Positions 20,559 to 26,937 of a stretch of DNA of 64,000 nt are shown here, one piece after another (position 1 is the stretch's first letter; each line of letters opens with the position of its first letter). Both the position numbers and the translations under genes were made by a program. The DNA lies in the NCBI GenBank assembly GCA_021849295.1, contig JAJZTA010000011.1, positions 1 through 64,000 of the forward strand. The letters are read 5' to 3'. Under the pieces are notes generated by a model. That model searched no databases, was not told the origin of the DNA, and saw nothing but the letters and a program-made list of their open reading frames with translations. The DNA is from Pseudomonadota bacterium (GTDB taxonomy: Bacteria > Pseudomonadota > Alphaproteobacteria > Micavibrionales > UBA2020).

Positions 20559-20921
20559 ATGTGGGTAGTTTACATTTTTATCGCCGTTTTTGTGACTGCT
20601 TTGTTGCTGGCGGGGCTGTTTTTCCCGTTCTGGAAAGTGTGGATGCGCATCCGCTACCATCACCCCGATATCTGGCAGGCGGCTGGACCGTTCGAAGTGC
20701 GCGACATGCTGCGCAGCACGGGACTGGCGGGCATTTTCATCGACGTGATCGTGAAGATCAACCGCGACAAGGTGCGGCAGAAAATGGACCCGACGCTCGC
20801 CAAATGGGTGCGGGCGTGCGTCGAAATGATCCGCATGGCGCCGCGCACGTGGGGCATGCGGTTTCTATACCTTATCGTCTTTATCTATATCGTCGCGGAA
20901 ATCACGAAACGGCTGGCCTGA
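20559..20921 (+). CDS. Small inner-membrane protein of unknown function
   Basis: A 120-residue protein with hydrophobic N-terminal (VVYIFIAVFVTALLLAGLFF) and C-terminal (FLYLIVFIYIVAEI) helices and a basic amphipathic middle part. I recognise no family. An alternative ATG lies at 20541. It is divergent from the ABC binding-protein gene with almost no space between starts, and its last 20 bases overlap the end of the convergent HEMTH-motif gene. Confidence 0.6.
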   Translation: MWVVYIFIAVFVTALLLAGLFFPFWKVWMRIRYHHPDIWQAAGPFEVRDMLRSTGLAGIFIDVIVKINRDKVRQKMDPTLAKWVRACVEMIRMAPRTWGMRFLYLIVFIYIVAEITKRLA

Positions 20922-21978
20922 ACGACGGCGCGGGCGTCTTTGTCTTGCGCAGCAGACCCGCCTTTTCCGCCTGACCGCGCAACGTCTCCAGCAACGGCTG
21001 CATATCGGTGAGCGTTCCCCTGCCCTCATGCTGCAGCTTTCCATTTGCGATAAATTGCCACATATCAACGTTGCCGTCGCGGCTGACGGTGAGCCCCAGT
21101 TTTCCCGGCAGGTTTGTTCCGATTGCCAGCATGTGCTCGGTCAGGTCGGTATTGAAAAGAAATTTCGACCCCGGCTCCTGCGTCCAGCGCGTCAGCGTCG
21201 CCAGCGTGTCGCGGCCCAGGTCCCGCAAAAACTTTTCGCGCGCCTCGGGCCTTGTCTGCGCGCGCTTTTTCTCGGCGAGCGCGAGGCGCGCCTTGCGCGC
21301 GGCGGGGAACTTGCGCTCGACGACTTTTTGCAGTAACGCGTCGTTTTCCGGCGTGGTATCGATATGCGCGGCAGGCACGTCGCCATGCGGATAGAGAAAG
21401 CGGCGCGCATAGTCCTCCATGATGGAGGCCTGCTGCTCGACGCCGAAAAAGCTGAAGCGCGACCGCTTGGTAAGTTTGTAGTCGTATTTCCGCGTCCGGC
21501 GGAACGTGCGGATGAAGGCGGCGGTGATGCTCGTCCGCTGCCAGATATGCGTCATTTCGTGCATGAAGGTGCCGAAGTTCATCGCCACGGCGGTCGTGCT
21601 GTAATCTTTTTCCTGCTGCGCCGCGCCGTAGAACACGGCGACGCGGCGGTTGAACACCGCAGCCAGCGTCGGGGCGGCGGACGGCCTGAAATATTTCCTG
21701 ACCTTTTTGAGATCGGCGGTCGCAAGCTTGCGCCCGAAGACGCTTTTCAGCAGCGAGATTTCATCCTTGCTGAGCGGCGCGCGCGTGCCCGTGGGCATGC
21801 TGACCGGCATCAGGTTCCAAAACCCGTCCGAAAAGCCGAACATCGCCACGCCGAAGGCCAGCGTAGTGCCGATCCCCGCCGCGCTGGTGATCGCCAAAGG
21901 AGCCGCGGCAACGCCCAAGGCGGCGGCGGCGACGCCGAAAGCCGCGGTCAGAAATCCTCTTTTGAAAGTATGGCGCAT
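20902..21978 (-). CDS. Putative membrane-associated zinc metallopeptidase-like protein (HEMTH motif)
   Basis: A 358-residue protein with a long hydrophobic Ala/Gly-rich N terminus (about 8-49). The zinc-binding type motif HEMTH at 140-144 lies in FMHEMTHIWQ, and a downstream glutamate in GVEQQASIMEDY (Glu181 or Glu188) could be the third ligand. HEMTHxWQ occurs in Vgr-related/DUF4157-like proteins, but the rest is not recognisable to me. The C-terminal part is Lys/Arg-rich. Catalytic activity is inferred from the motif only. Confidence 0.62.
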   Translation of the reverse strand: MRHTFKRGFLTAAFGVAAAALGVAAAPLAITSAAGIGTTLAFGVAMFGFSDGFWNLMPVSMPTGTRAPLSKDEISLLKSVFGRKLATADLKKVRKYFRPSAAPTLAAVFNRRVAVFYGAAQQEKDYSTTAVAMNFGTFMHEMTHIWQRTSITAAFIRTFRRTRKYDYKLTKRSRFSFFGVEQQASIMEDYARRFLYPHGDVPAAHIDTTPENDALLQKVVERKFPAARKARLALAEKKRAQTRPEAREKFLRDLGRDTLATLTRWTQEPGSKFLFNTDLTEHMLAIGTNLPGKLGLTVSRDGNVDMWQFIANGKLQHEGRGTLTDMQPLLETLRGQAEKAGLLRKTKTPAPSFRPAVS

Positions 21979-22402: not shown

Positions 22403-22442
22403 TAAAAACCGCGCTGCCTTTTCAAAGGCAGCGTGGTTTTTA
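22403..22442. terminator. Bidirectional intrinsic terminator
   Basis: AAAAACCGCGCTGCCTTT, a short loop, then AAAGGCAGCGTGGTTTTT: a long nearly perfect stem flanked by an A run and a T run. It can end transcripts from both the six-cysteine gene (plus) and the APH-like gene (minus), whose stop codon lies at its edge. Confidence 0.93.
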
Positions 22443-23303
22443 TGCGCCTTTTCCTGCCAGCTCCGCCGCCGTATCGGCGATAGCGTGCATATATTCTTTC
22501 CAGTCGCCGCCTGCGCTCCACGCCGCGCACTGCAGCGCGTGCAAAAAGGCGAACTGCAGGAGCTGCTTTTTATCCACGCGGGAACGTTCGACGATAATCT
22601 CCGCCTGCCGCTCCATATGCTTGGGACTGGAGACGATGTCGGCGGCGGCGTAAGGATTGCACAGCGTGTTGGCATACTCGTAAACGCGCGGCCCGAGAAT
22701 GCCTTTCGGATCGATGGCGAGCCAGCCGCGCGAAGAAGAATGCAGCACGTTGTCATGATGGACGTCGCCGTGCAGCGGCTGCCAGTCGGCCTTGGTCGCC
22801 GCGACAAGCTCCTCGCCCAGCGACAGCGCGGTTTGATACTGCGCGCGGCGGTCTTGCGGCGTCTTGCCCCGCTCCACCTGTTCGCGCAAGGTTTCCTGCC
22901 GCGTGTCGAACGGAATGAGATGTTGCAGCGGCTCTCCCGCGGGAGCAGCATGCAGTTGTTCAATCACATCGCAAATGATGTGCGTGGCCGCATTCGCTTC
23001 GCCTGCCAGCACCCGCCTTGCCAGCGTCGGCACCTGCGTTTTATCGATGATGCGCTCCATAAGCTGCGCGTAACCTGCGCTTTTGACCAGCCGCACCGCC
23101 CCTCTGCCCCCGTAGTGGCGCAGCATATCGGCACCGTACGCCTCGTCGTCGTCGGGATCGGCGACTTTAAGCATGCACGCGTGGCCTTCGGAAACAACGG
23201 GCCAGAGCAGACTCGAATGGCTGAAAAACATTTCGCCGTCGGGGTGGCAGTCCCAGCTTTTCATCAGCACATGTGCCGCAGCGGTGAGCCTGCTATGGTC
23301 CAT
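22440..23303 (-). CDS. APH(6)/hydroxyurea phosphotransferase-like kinase
   Basis: A 287-residue protein with the kinase catalytic loop LHGDVHHDNVLHSS and the metal-binding segment WLAIDPKGILGPRVYE. Together these mark the aminoglycoside 6-phosphotransferase / hydroxyurea phosphotransferase family (streptomycin inactivation in known members). Chromosomal relatives often have other small-molecule substrates, so resistance should not be assumed. It lies 6 bases after the polyprenyl-phosphate sugar transferase gene on the same strand. The ATG at 23303 has a TAAGG site; an in-frame GTG precedes it. Confidence 0.85.
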   Translation of the reverse strand: MDHSRLTAAAHVLMKSWDCHPDGEMFFSHSSLLWPVVSEGHACMLKVADPDDDEAYGADMLRHYGGRGAVRLVKSAGYAQLMERIIDKTQVPTLARRVLAGEANAATHIICDVIEQLHAAPAGEPLQHLIPFDTRQETLREQVERGKTPQDRRAQYQTALSLGEELVAATKADWQPLHGDVHHDNVLHSSSRGWLAIDPKGILGPRVYEYANTLCNPYAAADIVSSPKHMERQAEIIVERSRVDKKQLLQFAFLHALQCAAWSAGGDWKEYMHAIADTAAELAGKGA

Positions 23304-23309
23304 CACGCC

Positions 23310-24227
23310 TTACCCGTCCTCGGATACTATATATATGGGGCGGTCTTTGACTTCGGTGAAAATGCGGCCGATATATTCGCCGATCACACCGAGAGAGATA
23401 AGCTGGATGCCACCCATGAAGAGGATGCCGCACATCAGCGACGGGAAGCCAGGCATATCGACGCCGAAAAGCAGCGTGCGCACGACCAGATAAACGGCAT
23501 AGACCGTCGCTACGGTGGAAATCAGAAAACCGAACAGCGACCAGACGCGCAACGGCACGTTGCTGAACGCGGTGAGACCGTTGATCGCCAGCATGAAAAG
23601 GCTCCTGAACGACCAGCTGGAAACGCCGCTCGCCCGCTCGGCGGCGTCGAACTCGACGAAGCCGGACTGGAACCCCACCCACGTCATCAGGCCTTTCATG
23701 AAGCGGTTTTTCTCCGGCAGGCTGTTGATCGCGGCGACGACCTGTTTGTCGAGCAGGCGAAAATCGCCCGCGCCTTCCGGCAATTCGAGATCGCTGATGG
23801 TTTTGAATATCCAGTAAAAGGCCTTGGTCCAGGCACGGCGCAAAAAGCCGTCCCCGTCCCTGTTGCGGCGCAGGGCATAAACCATCTTGTCGCCGGCTTG
23901 CCATTTTTCGAGCATCGCGAGAATCGTTTCCGGCGGGTGCTGCAGGTCGGCGTCGAGCATCACCACCGCATCCCCCTTGGCGCGGTTGAGGCCGCAGGTC
24001 AGCGCCGCCTCCTTGCCGAAGTTGCGGGCGAGTCTGATGATATGTAAATTTTTGTATTTTTCCCTGAGAGACTTCAGCACTTCATATGTATTGTCGGGGC
24101 TGCCATCGTCGATGGCAAGAATTTCCTTATCGCCGTCCACCTGATCGAGCACCTTTTGCAGGCGTGCGAGCATATCAGGCAGGTTGGTCGCCTCGCGGTA
24201 ACAGGGTAAGATGACGGACAGGTGCAT
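23310..24227 (-). CDS. Polyprenyl-phosphate glycosyltransferase (GtrB / FlmF2-like, GT2)
   Basis: A 305-residue protein. It has LSVILPCYREATNLPDML, AIDDGSPDNTYEVL, the metal-binding VMLDADLQHPPE, GAGDFRLLD and KGLMTWVGFQ, all standard for DPM1/GtrB-type enzymes that load a sugar onto undecaprenyl phosphate on the cytosolic face. Two C-terminal membrane helices follow (about 228-255 and 265-290). The donor sugar is not visible from sequence. Context (divergent deacetylase-GtrA fusion and ArnT-like transferase) suggests an N-acetylhexosamine, as for Francisella FlmF2. Confidence 0.9.
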   Translation of the reverse strand: MHLSVILPCYREATNLPDMLARLQKVLDQVDGDKEILAIDDGSPDNTYEVLKSLREKYKNLHIIRLARNFGKEAALTCGLNRAKGDAVVMLDADLQHPPETILAMLEKWQAGDKMVYALRRNRDGDGFLRRAWTKAFYWIFKTISDLELPEGAGDFRLLDKQVVAAINSLPEKNRFMKGLMTWVGFQSGFVEFDAAERASGVSSWSFRSLFMLAINGLTAFSNVPLRVWSLFGFLISTVATVYAVYLVVRTLLFGVDMPGFPSLMCGILFMGGIQLISLGVIGEYIGRIFTEVKDRPIYIVSEDG

Positions 24228-24274
24228 GTGCTAGTCTCTTGTGAATAACGCTGTAACTCTATATGACGGAACTT

Positions 24275-25471
24275 ATGAAATCAACAGTCATACTTTGCGC
24301 CGACGACTACGGCATCAGCGCCGGCGTCAACCGCGCGATCGCCTCTCTTGCGGAGCGCGGGCGGATTTCGGCAGTGAGCTGCATGGCCTGCGGCGAAGCC
24401 TGGGCCGAGGGCGCAGGCATGCTCAAACCGTTCAAGGACAATATCGGCATCGGCCTGCACCTCACCTTCACCAACCTGCCGCCGCTCACCAAAGCATGGG
24501 GCGAAAAATTCCCGGCCATCAAGTCGCTCATCATCAAAAGCTGGCTGCGCAAGCTGGACGCGGCCGCGATCGAGGCCGAGGTGCGCGCGCAGTTCCAGAA
24601 ATTCATCGAACACTGGGGCAAGCCGCCGGATTTCGTCGACGGCCACCAGCACGTGCATATCCTGCCGCAAATCCGCGAGGCGCTTTTGCAAGTCCGCACC
24701 GAACTTGCGCCCGATGCGTGGATGCGCAACGTCGTCGACATCGCCTCTGCGAAGGACGACTTCAAAAGCGCGGTGCTGGCCGTGCTCGGCTGGCGGCTGC
24801 TGGCGATGATGAACAAGCGGAACATCGTCCACAACCGGTTTTTCCGCGGCGCTTACGATTATTCCAGGCCGGCGGACTTTGCAGCGCTGATGACGCACTG
24901 GCTGCGGCAGGAGGAGCCGGTTCTGGTTTATTGCCATCCGGGCTTTCCCGACGACGTCCTCGCCAGACATGACGAAGTGCTGGAGCCGCGGCAAAAGGAA
25001 TATGATTTTCTCGACGGCGCGGACTGGGGCGCGCGGCTGAAAGACGGCGGCGTGACGCTGCTCAAACGCCCCGCACCGGGCGCGCACGCGCTTTTCACCC
25101 TCTCGCGCCAACTGCTGCGCTTTCTCGTTACCGGCGGGGTCAACACGCTGTTCGGCTACCTTGTTTACGTCGGCGGCATCATGTTATTCAACCTGCACTA
25201 TTTCTGGGCGGTGATGTGGTCTTACATCATCGGCACGACCTTCAGCTTCGCCACCTTCCGCGCCTTCGTCTTCACCGACGGCGAGCGCGGCATCCTCAAA
25301 AGCTATCTGCGCTTCATTCCCACCTACATCGCGCTGTTCCTCGTCAACGAGGCGCTGCTGTTCGTCTTCGTCGACGTCGTTGGCTGGAACAAGCTGGCCG
25401 CGCAGGCCGGCGTCATCCCCCTGTGCGCGGCGCTTTCCTTCGTCATCAATAAAATATTCGTGTTCAAATGA
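24275..25471 (+). CDS. ChbG/YdjC-family deacetylase fused to a GtrA-type membrane domain
   Basis: A 398-residue fusion. Residues about 1-270 are a ChbG/YdjC (NaxD, HpnK) metal-dependent carbohydrate deacetylase: VILCADDYGISAGVNRAI carries the catalytic/metal aspartates, and metal histidines appear in GLHLTF, DGHQHVHILP and YCHPGFPDD. From about 285 to the end is a GtrA domain with four membrane helices (LLRFLVTGGVNTLFGYLVYV, FSFATFRAFVF, FVINKIFVF), the family thought to flip polyprenyl-linked sugars. An alternative start lies at 24263. It overlaps the ArnT-like gene by ATGA and is divergent from the GtrB-like gene. Confidence 0.9.
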   Translation: MKSTVILCADDYGISAGVNRAIASLAERGRISAVSCMACGEAWAEGAGMLKPFKDNIGIGLHLTFTNLPPLTKAWGEKFPAIKSLIIKSWLRKLDAAAIEAEVRAQFQKFIEHWGKPPDFVDGHQHVHILPQIREALLQVRTELAPDAWMRNVVDIASAKDDFKSAVLAVLGWRLLAMMNKRNIVHNRFFRGAYDYSRPADFAALMTHWLRQEEPVLVYCHPGFPDDVLARHDEVLEPRQKEYDFLDGADWGARLKDGGVTLLKRPAPGAHALFTLSRQLLRFLVTGGVNTLFGYLVYVGGIMLFNLHYFWAVMWSYIIGTTFSFATFRAFVFTDGERGILKSYLRFIPTYIALFLVNEALLFVFVDVVGWNKLAAQAGVIPLCAALSFVINKIFVFK

Positions 25472-26937
25472 CCGACAACGATACCTGCTGCAAGATCCCC
25501 TTCCCCAAGCGCGTTTTCATCGCCTTCGCCGCGCTGGCTGGCGTGCGGCTCGCGGGCATGGTCCTCATCCCGCTCAACGAAACCACCGAAGCGCGCTACG
25601 GGGAAATGGCGCGCAAGATGCTGGTCTTGAACGACTGGGTGACGCTGTGGCACAAAATCGGCGTGCCGTTCTGGGCCAAGCCGCCGCTTTACGCGTGGCT
25701 GTCCGCGGCGTCGATGGGCATGTTCGGCATCAGCGCCTTCGCCGCGCGCCTGCCGTCGCTGCTCCTGTCCGCCGCGATGTGCTGGCTCGTCTATGACGCG
25801 GCGATGCGCCGCGAAAAAATAGAGGGGCTGCCGCAAGGCAGCGGCAAAACGGCGGGGCTGACCGCCGCGCTGGTGCTGGCCTCGTGCGCCGGATTCTTCA
25901 TCGCGGGCGGCACGGTGATGACCGACCCGTCGCTGGTCTTTTGCACCATGCTGGTGCAGCTCGCCTTCTGGCATGCGCTGCACGACGATAAAAACCCCGA
26001 GCTGTGGGCGTGGACGTTCTTCGTCGGCTGCGGCCTCGGCCTGCTGTCCAAAGGGCCTGTCGCGCTGGTGCTGCCGGGCCTGCCGGTCTTTTTCTGGGTT
26101 TTGATCCGCAAACAGTGGAAGCCCTTGTGGCAAAAACTGCCGTGGATCCGGGGCACGCTCCTCACCTTCGCCATCGCCGCGCCGTGGTATCTGATGGCCG
26201 AGCATCGCACGCCGGGCTTCTTGAAATATTTCATCGTCGGCGAAAACATCAGCCGCTTCCTCGACCCTCACTGGAAGGGCGATCTTTACGGCTTCTCCCA
26301 CGCCTTCCCTTATGGCACGATCTGGCTGTTCGCGCTCGGCGGCGTGTTTCCGTGGAGTCTGGTCGCGCTGAAATGGATCAAAACGCGTCTGAAAGACGAT
26401 GACGGCTGGATTTTATATCTCGCGCTGTGGAGCACGCTCAGTCTTGTCTTCTTCACCTTCTGCGCCAACATCATCTGGCCCTACATCCTGATGATGCAGC
26501 CGGGCTTCGCGCTGCTGTTCGCCGAATACGCCGTGCGCGAGGAGGGCTTCATGCGCAAGTTCGTTCCCATGACCGCGCTGGTGACGGCGCTTCTGGGCGC
26601 GGGCGCGATTTTCGGATTTCGCGCCTTTCCGCAGAAACTCGCCAACGATCAAGCGGACATCGTCGCGGCGTGGAAGATGACCCGCCCCGCCAAAGACAGC
26701 CGCCTCGTCTTCTGGAGCAACCGCATGGAGTTTTCAGCGGAGTTCTATTCCAACGGCCGCGCCGACGTCACCAACGACGCGTCCGCAGTTGAAAAACTGC
26801 TGCACGACCATACGCGCGACTGCATCATCACATACGCATACAACGAAGACACGCTGCCGCCAGACGTCCGCGCCGCCCTCCACGAAGTCACCCGCATCAA
26901 AAACCACCGCGGGACGCGGATATTGCTGTGTCAGTAG
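25468..26937 (+). CDS. ArnT-like lipid-linked sugar transferase (GT83/GT39 type)
   Basis: A 489-residue polytopic inner-membrane protein. The first periplasmic loop has ETTEARYGEMARKM, the acidic catalytic signature of ArnT/PMT-like enzymes, followed by GVPFWAKPPLYAWLSAAS and roughly ten membrane helices. ArnT-type enzymes move a sugar from undecaprenyl phosphate to lipid A phosphates in the periplasm. Its coupling to a deacetylase-flippase fusion suggests transfer of a free amino sugar. The soluble C-terminal part is about 100 residues. Confidence 0.88.
   Translation: MTDNDTCCKIPFPKRVFIAFAALAGVRLAGMVLIPLNETTEARYGEMARKMLVLNDWVTLWHKIGVPFWAKPPLYAWLSAASMGMFGISAFAARLPSLLLSAAMCWLVYDAAMRREKIEGLPQGSGKTAGLTAALVLASCAGFFIAGGTVMTDPSLVFCTMLVQLAFWHALHDDKNPELWAWTFFVGCGLGLLSKGPVALVLPGLPVFFWVLIRKQWKPLWQKLPWIRGTLLTFAIAAPWYLMAEHRTPGFLKYFIVGENISRFLDPHWKGDLYGFSHAFPYGTIWLFALGGVFPWSLVALKWIKTRLKDDDGWILYLALWSTLSLVFFTFCANIIWPYILMMQPGFALLFAEYAVREEGFMRKFVPMTALVTALLGAGAIFGFRAFPQKLANDQADIVAAWKMTRPAKDSRLVFWSNRMEFSAEFYSNGRADVTNDASAVEKLLHDHTRDCIITYAYNEDTLPPDVRAALHEVTRIKNHRGTRILLCQ

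Follow-up and report, generated by a model that had tools for sequence, protein, structure and literature searches.

A YdjC deacetylase domain fused to a GtrA domain in a candidate lipopolysaccharide amino-sugar cassette of one alphaproteobacterial genus

A four-part cassette with a fused YdjC-GtrA gene

The DNA analysed here (the window) consists of the first 64,000 nucleotides of contig JAJZTA010000011.1, from an alphaproteobacterial genome of the order Micavibrionales (GCA_021849295.1). It carries a compact cassette encoding a glycosyltransferase of family 2 (GT2), a YdjC-type deacetylase domain and a GtrA domain fused in a single protein, and an ArnT-like glycosyltransferase of the GT-C type. 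These four parts had been proposed in a reading made from the letters of the window without database searches (the sequence-only reading). Pfam matches and open reading frames recovered all of them at the positions proposed, and the domain assignments were borne out by Pfam and structure matches. That reading left out one point, namely the divergent orientation of the GT2 gene relative to the YdjC-GtrA and ArnT-like genes. The start of the ArnT-like gene overlaps the stop of the fusion gene through an ATGA motif. In the source genome, YdjC, GtrA and PMT/ArnT (PF02366) each have one match, every one inside the cassette. This genome is 88% complete, and absences from it are therefore provisional.

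The deacetylase and the putative flippase are indeed one polypeptide, as had been claimed: a single frame of 402 amino acids contains both domains. The joint is present in close relatives. The same frame was found in three other species-level metagenome-assembled genomes of the genus (G005, 85% identity; G002, 79%; G004, 78%), and was also seen in public contigs JAJZFS010000051.1, JAGXAX010000059.1 and JAJZVA010000003.1. Across the joint, the sequences are under purifying selection, with nonsynonymous divergence of 0.11-0.23 as compared to synonymous divergence of 0.54-1.03. An assembly error or a frameshift artefact is thus ruled out by the frame shared in four species and by the selection acting on the joint. 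Moreover, the window gene has no in-frame ATG, GTG or TTG from residue 265 to the first transmembrane segment (TM1), so that GtrA is not made there as a separate product. Coordinates are collected in Table 1.

Table 1. Positions of the cassette genes and of the domains of the fusion protein within the window
Feature	Position	Strand	Details
GtrB-like GT2, polyprenyl-phosphate sugar synthase (predicted)	23310..24227	-	305 amino acids; Pfam Glycos_transf_2 E=4.4e-33
YdjC-GtrA fusion	24263..25471	+	single 402-amino-acid frame
YdjC (NaxD/ChbG-type) deacetylase domain (predicted)	24287..25036	+	residues 9-258; Pfam E=7.7e-50
Joint	25061..25111	+	about residues 267-283; site of the ATGA overlap between the unfused genes in G006 and G007
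GtrA domain	25118..25465	+	residues 286-401; Pfam E=5.3e-17
ArnT-like GT-C glycosyltransferase	25468..26937	+	489 amino acids; Pfam PMT E=2.5e-20

Two neighbours of the cassette were also recorded. An APH(6)-like kinase gene (22440-23306, reverse strand; PF04655, 188 bits) lies 3 nucleotides downstream of gtrB on the same strand. Its product scores 163 bits against the APH(6)-I cut-off of 325 bits and, by that cut-off, is no bona fide resistance gene product. A copy 57% identical occupies the equivalent place in G007, another genome of the genus (L021 2686-3561), and no intact homologue was seen beside gtrB in G002, G004 or G006. The second neighbour is a protein with a HEMTH motif (HExxH-like) and no Pfam match, which is single in the window (20902-21978, reverse strand) and present as three tandem copies beside the cassette in G004 (L020 3790-6929).

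Distribution and origin of the fusion

In order to see how the fusion arose, the closest unfused loci are informative. In G006 and G007, two other species of the genus, the same cassette occupies the same neighbourhood as in the window, with YdjC and GtrA as two genes overlapping by ATGA. GtrB is divergent, YdjC, GtrA and ArnT are consecutive, and rlmN lies on the far side. Beyond rlmN, kdsB follows in G006; the G007 contig stops inside rlmN. From the Lys-Arg at the end of YdjC in G007 to the Arg-Phe of TM1, both conserved, the distance is 59 nucleotides in the unfused and 60 nucleotides in the fused arrangement. A net change of one nucleotide (+1) at the ATGA overlap would therefore have removed the stop and joined the frames, a simple route from two overlapping genes to one. 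Further away, two genomes of the same family (G010, G011) and G059 have four separate adjacent genes in the order ArnT-GtrB-GtrA-YdjC.

In the ArnT tree the four species with the fusion group together as one clade (support 100/100), and they do so again in a concatenate of the four proteins (86/87), the unfused pair lying outside. Since the fused species form one clade, the sister species are split and the distant relatives have four genes, the most parsimonious account is a single recent fusion, which took place within one clade of this genus.

Two surveys were used to ask how widespread the architecture is. At the level of the class, PF04794 was matched in 62 of 385 genomes, and 68 stretches were read that span these loci together with the flanking sequence. 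At the level of the phylum, 99 of 398 genomes had a match to a profile built on YdjC; about 50 of the matching loci, including part of the weaker matches, were read one by one. This profile kept the YdjC part only (267 positions), and fusions are therefore seen by reading each locus rather than directly from the search. Among the roughly 110 distinct YdjC loci covered, no YdjC-GtrA fusion was found outside this genus. A widespread YdjC-GtrA architecture was therefore rejected for the loci read. Literature searches, whose scope left aside the primary NaxD and Lgm papers and the UniProt/InterPro architectures, returned no published YdjC-GtrA fusion.

The cassette itself is more common. Of the 34 YdjC genes in the window protein's clade of the YdjC tree, 25 have GtrB no more than about 4 kb away, as compared to 5 of the 39 in the other clade. 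Cassettes of the same four families were also seen beyond the class, in G741 and G764, where YdjC adjoins ArnT. Overall, the fusion is real and rare, a modest variation within a type of cassette that is in other respects known and widespread.

Another fusion was seen in a different family of the phylum, where YdjC is followed in one frame of 704-706 amino acids by a glycosyltransferase of group 1 (GT4-like; L131 2023-4140 and L132 1638-3749). Judged by frame length, it recurs in several genomes of genus g365. Its logic recalls the pairing of GpgS with GpgD (GT4 plus deacetylase), and the protein could be a one-protein synthase of an amino-sugar lipid.

Predicted functions of the four parts and the acceptor

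The GT2 protein matches the structures of Synechocystis sll0501 (5EKP/5EKE) over residues 2-303 with E~1e-92, and those of ArnC less strongly (~1e-39 to 1e-42). It has a DAD sequence at residues 92-94 (DXD motif) and C-terminal hydrophobic helices. By these features it is classed as a GtrB-like polyprenyl-phosphate sugar synthase.

The YdjC domain scores 170.6 bits with PF04794 (cut-off 29.7). The metal-binding and catalytic residues (Asp-Asp, His, His and C-terminal His) are all present as D14, D15, H66, H128 and H225, and they are invariant in the 72-73 YdjC sequences compared. The active site is thus intact on alignment, and a dead deacetylase was rejected because all five residues are kept. 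An AlphaFold2 model of the fusion resembles ChbG (7vi8), with a TM-score of 0.75-0.78 by target length in Foldseek. From its family, the domain is predicted to be a NaxD/ChbG-type deacetylase acting on undecaprenyl-phosphate N-acetylhexosamine. The stretch before TM1, loop 2 and the C-terminus carry positive charge, from which the positive-inside rule suggests that the YdjC domain is cytoplasmic.

The GtrA domain scores 62.5 bits with PF04138 (cut-off 26.1). The model of the fusion has a mean predicted local distance difference test (pLDDT) value of 86.5 and a predicted TM-score of 0.73; the YdjC domain is confident, and four long helices are predicted for GtrA (276-309, 313-335, 344-372 and 377-399). 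Residues 276-280, at the joint, have pLDDT values below 50. A GtrA about 60% identical to that of the window was also observed in G003, of the same genus and 87% complete (L023 8044-8562). It adjoins a different GT2, with neither a YdjC match nor an ArnT at that place.

For the GT-C protein, the sole match in the PDB is the C. metallidurans ArnT (5EZM/5F15, E=6.9e-17). The essential Tyr and Lys of the first periplasmic loop (Y43 and K69 of the B. cenocepacia enzyme) are both kept. We class this protein of 489 amino acids as ArnT-like and not as ArnT itself, the equivalog that transfers 4-amino-4-deoxy-L-arabinose.

From these assignments the following pathway can be proposed. The GtrB-like enzyme would transfer an N-acetylhexosamine from its UDP-sugar to undecaprenyl phosphate at the cytoplasmic face, where the YdjC domain would strip the acetyl group. 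The GtrA domain would help to bring the lipid-linked hexosamine across to the periplasmic side, and the ArnT-like enzyme would pass it to the acceptor. Family membership points to this order of reactions and, more weakly, to the acceptor and to the identity of the sugar. By analogy, the pathway is probably one of the undecaprenyl-phosphate-hexosamine type known from Francisella and Bordetella, with lipid A as the probable acceptor. Indeed, ArnT-family proteins are required for the galactosamine or glucosamine modification of lipid A in these bacteria (PMC5377068, PMC11279074, PMC4993483), which makes lipid A the likeliest acceptor here. The same acceptor is suggested by ArnT as closest solved structure, by LpxC in the source genome (E=3e-103; the sole lipid A gene searched by family) and by kdsB in the conserved neighbourhood. 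The sequence-only reading had likened the locus to the Francisella and Bordetella systems; the likeness held for the logic of the pathway, while lipid A as acceptor keeps the standing of a prediction. Taking the evidence together, we consider it fairly likely that a cationic hexosamine is the product of the cassette and is attached to lipopolysaccharide (LPS), with a phosphate of lipid A as the most likely site.

Several observations weigh against this reading. The tree of YdjC alone does not group the four fused genes, though their grouping is not rejected (approximately unbiased test, p=0.10). The ArnT-like protein scores 107.9 bits against the ArnT equivalog cut-off of 567 bits (NCBIfam NF009784), and the ArnT motifs RYA and YFEKP are kept in part only, as RYG and FWAKP. 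For the GtrA family, direct evidence of flippase activity is lacking, also for known members (PMC11127046), and its member Rv3789 has been proposed as a flippase and also as an anchor, on conflicting evidence (PMC7389260).

An anchor role is accordingly worth weighing for the window protein too. The GtrA domain might be a membrane anchor or docking unit that fixes the deacetylase beside GtrB while another protein flips the lipid; this is possible, if on the unlikely side, and as it affects a single step it would fit within the pathway proposed above. Rv3789 was proposed to recruit AftA in this manner (PMC7389260), and an archaeal dolichyl-phosphate mannose synthase has a GtrA-like transmembrane domain (5MLZ; weak match only). 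That lgmD, fourth in the Bordetella locus, is dispensable (PMC4993483) could be taken in the same sense if LgmD is GtrA-like. In contrast, point mutants of Listeria GtcA, in which R95 and N132 are essential, separate lipoteichoic acid from wall teichoic acid glycosylation, suggesting substrate recognition (PMC7389260), and GtrA stands as a separate protein of 124-144 amino acids in the unfused relatives.

With the same chemistry, the hexosamine could be destined for the LPS core, an O-polysaccharide, or another glycan or protein. GT-C enzymes served by GtrA and GtrB use several acceptors, as in O-antigen glucosylation (PMC11127046), and the divergent motifs and low equivalog score of the ArnT-like protein leave room for this. 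It nevertheless appears unlikely, given the ArnT structure as closest match, the conservation of the neighbourhood with kdsB, and deacetylation to a cationic sugar, which is the known lipid A logic of NaxD and Lgm.

We regard it as very improbable that the end product is a free membrane lipid bearing an amino sugar (glucosaminyl-phosphatidylglycerol, for example), with no modification of LPS. In P. aeruginosa, gpgSDF is a trio of glycosyltransferase, deacetylase and predicted flippase, to which its authors relate C. difficile HexSDF (PMC12713373). However, GpgS belongs to GT4 and GpgD to COG3233, as compared to GT2 and YdjC in the window, the window transferase matches the GtrB-type sll0501, and an ArnT-like GT-C gene overlaps the fusion.

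A hopanoid-associated (HpnK) cluster can be dismissed: the weak HpnK similarity of the window YdjC (59.1 bits) is far below the cut-off of 232.6, proteins above that cut-off sit in the other YdjC clade, and the source genome, within its completeness, has no match for squalene-hopene cyclase (PF13243).

Substrate channelling and comparison with known systems

The sequence-only reading had taken the fusion to imply that only deacetylated sugar is passed to the flippase. This is unsupported: the sister species encode the pathway unfused and the flippase activity of GtrA is unproven. As the sister species carry the cassette unfused, the fusion is no requirement. Channelling is further weakened by a short linker of low confidence, and adjacent overlapping genes can fuse without functional reason. 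We therefore judge it improbable that the deacetylase hands its product to GtrA in cis, with only the deacetylated, cationic undecaprenyl-phosphate hexosamine being translocated. If it did, this would speak for direct handling of the sugar-lipid by GtrA, and the protein would be, to our knowledge, without precedent as a covalent deacetylase-flippase unit. Whether GtrA is a flippase or an anchor is debated, and its fusion to the enzyme finishing the head group gives a handle on the question. The fused and unfused versions of sister species form a clean pair of constructs for the role of GtrA and for whether deacetylation must precede flipping.

The logic of loading, deacetylating and flipping a sugar is not new, as shown by B. 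pertussis lgm (PMC4993483) and P. aeruginosa GpgSDF (PMC12713373). Like the window, the FlmF2-NaxD-FlmK system that adds galactosamine to lipid A in Francisella combines a GT2, a YdjC deacetylase and an ArnT-like enzyme acting through an undecaprenyl-phosphate hexosamine (NaxD: PMC11279074). It differs in that the window YdjC is fused to GtrA; the likeness to NaxD is drawn at the level of the family. Bordetella lgmABCD is likewise a multi-gene cassette, modifying lipid A phosphates with glucosamine (PMC4993483). There the genes are separate, lgmABC being required in B. pertussis and lgmD dispensable, and the likeness is drawn from the published description. In the three-component GtrA/GtrB/Gtr systems, GtrB makes the undecaprenyl-phosphate sugar, GtrA is the proposed flippase and a GT-C enzyme transfers the sugar (PMC11127046); the window adds a deacetylase, fused to GtrA. 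P. aeruginosa GpgSDF and C. difficile HexSDF have the transferase-deacetylase-flippase logic in common with the window, whereas GpgSDF is built from other families (GT4, COG3233 and UPF0104) and its product is a phospholipid. The unfused cassettes of the Alphaproteobacteria G010, G011 and G059, and those of G741 and G764 elsewhere in the phylum, have the same four families in adjacent genes, which are separate and in another order.

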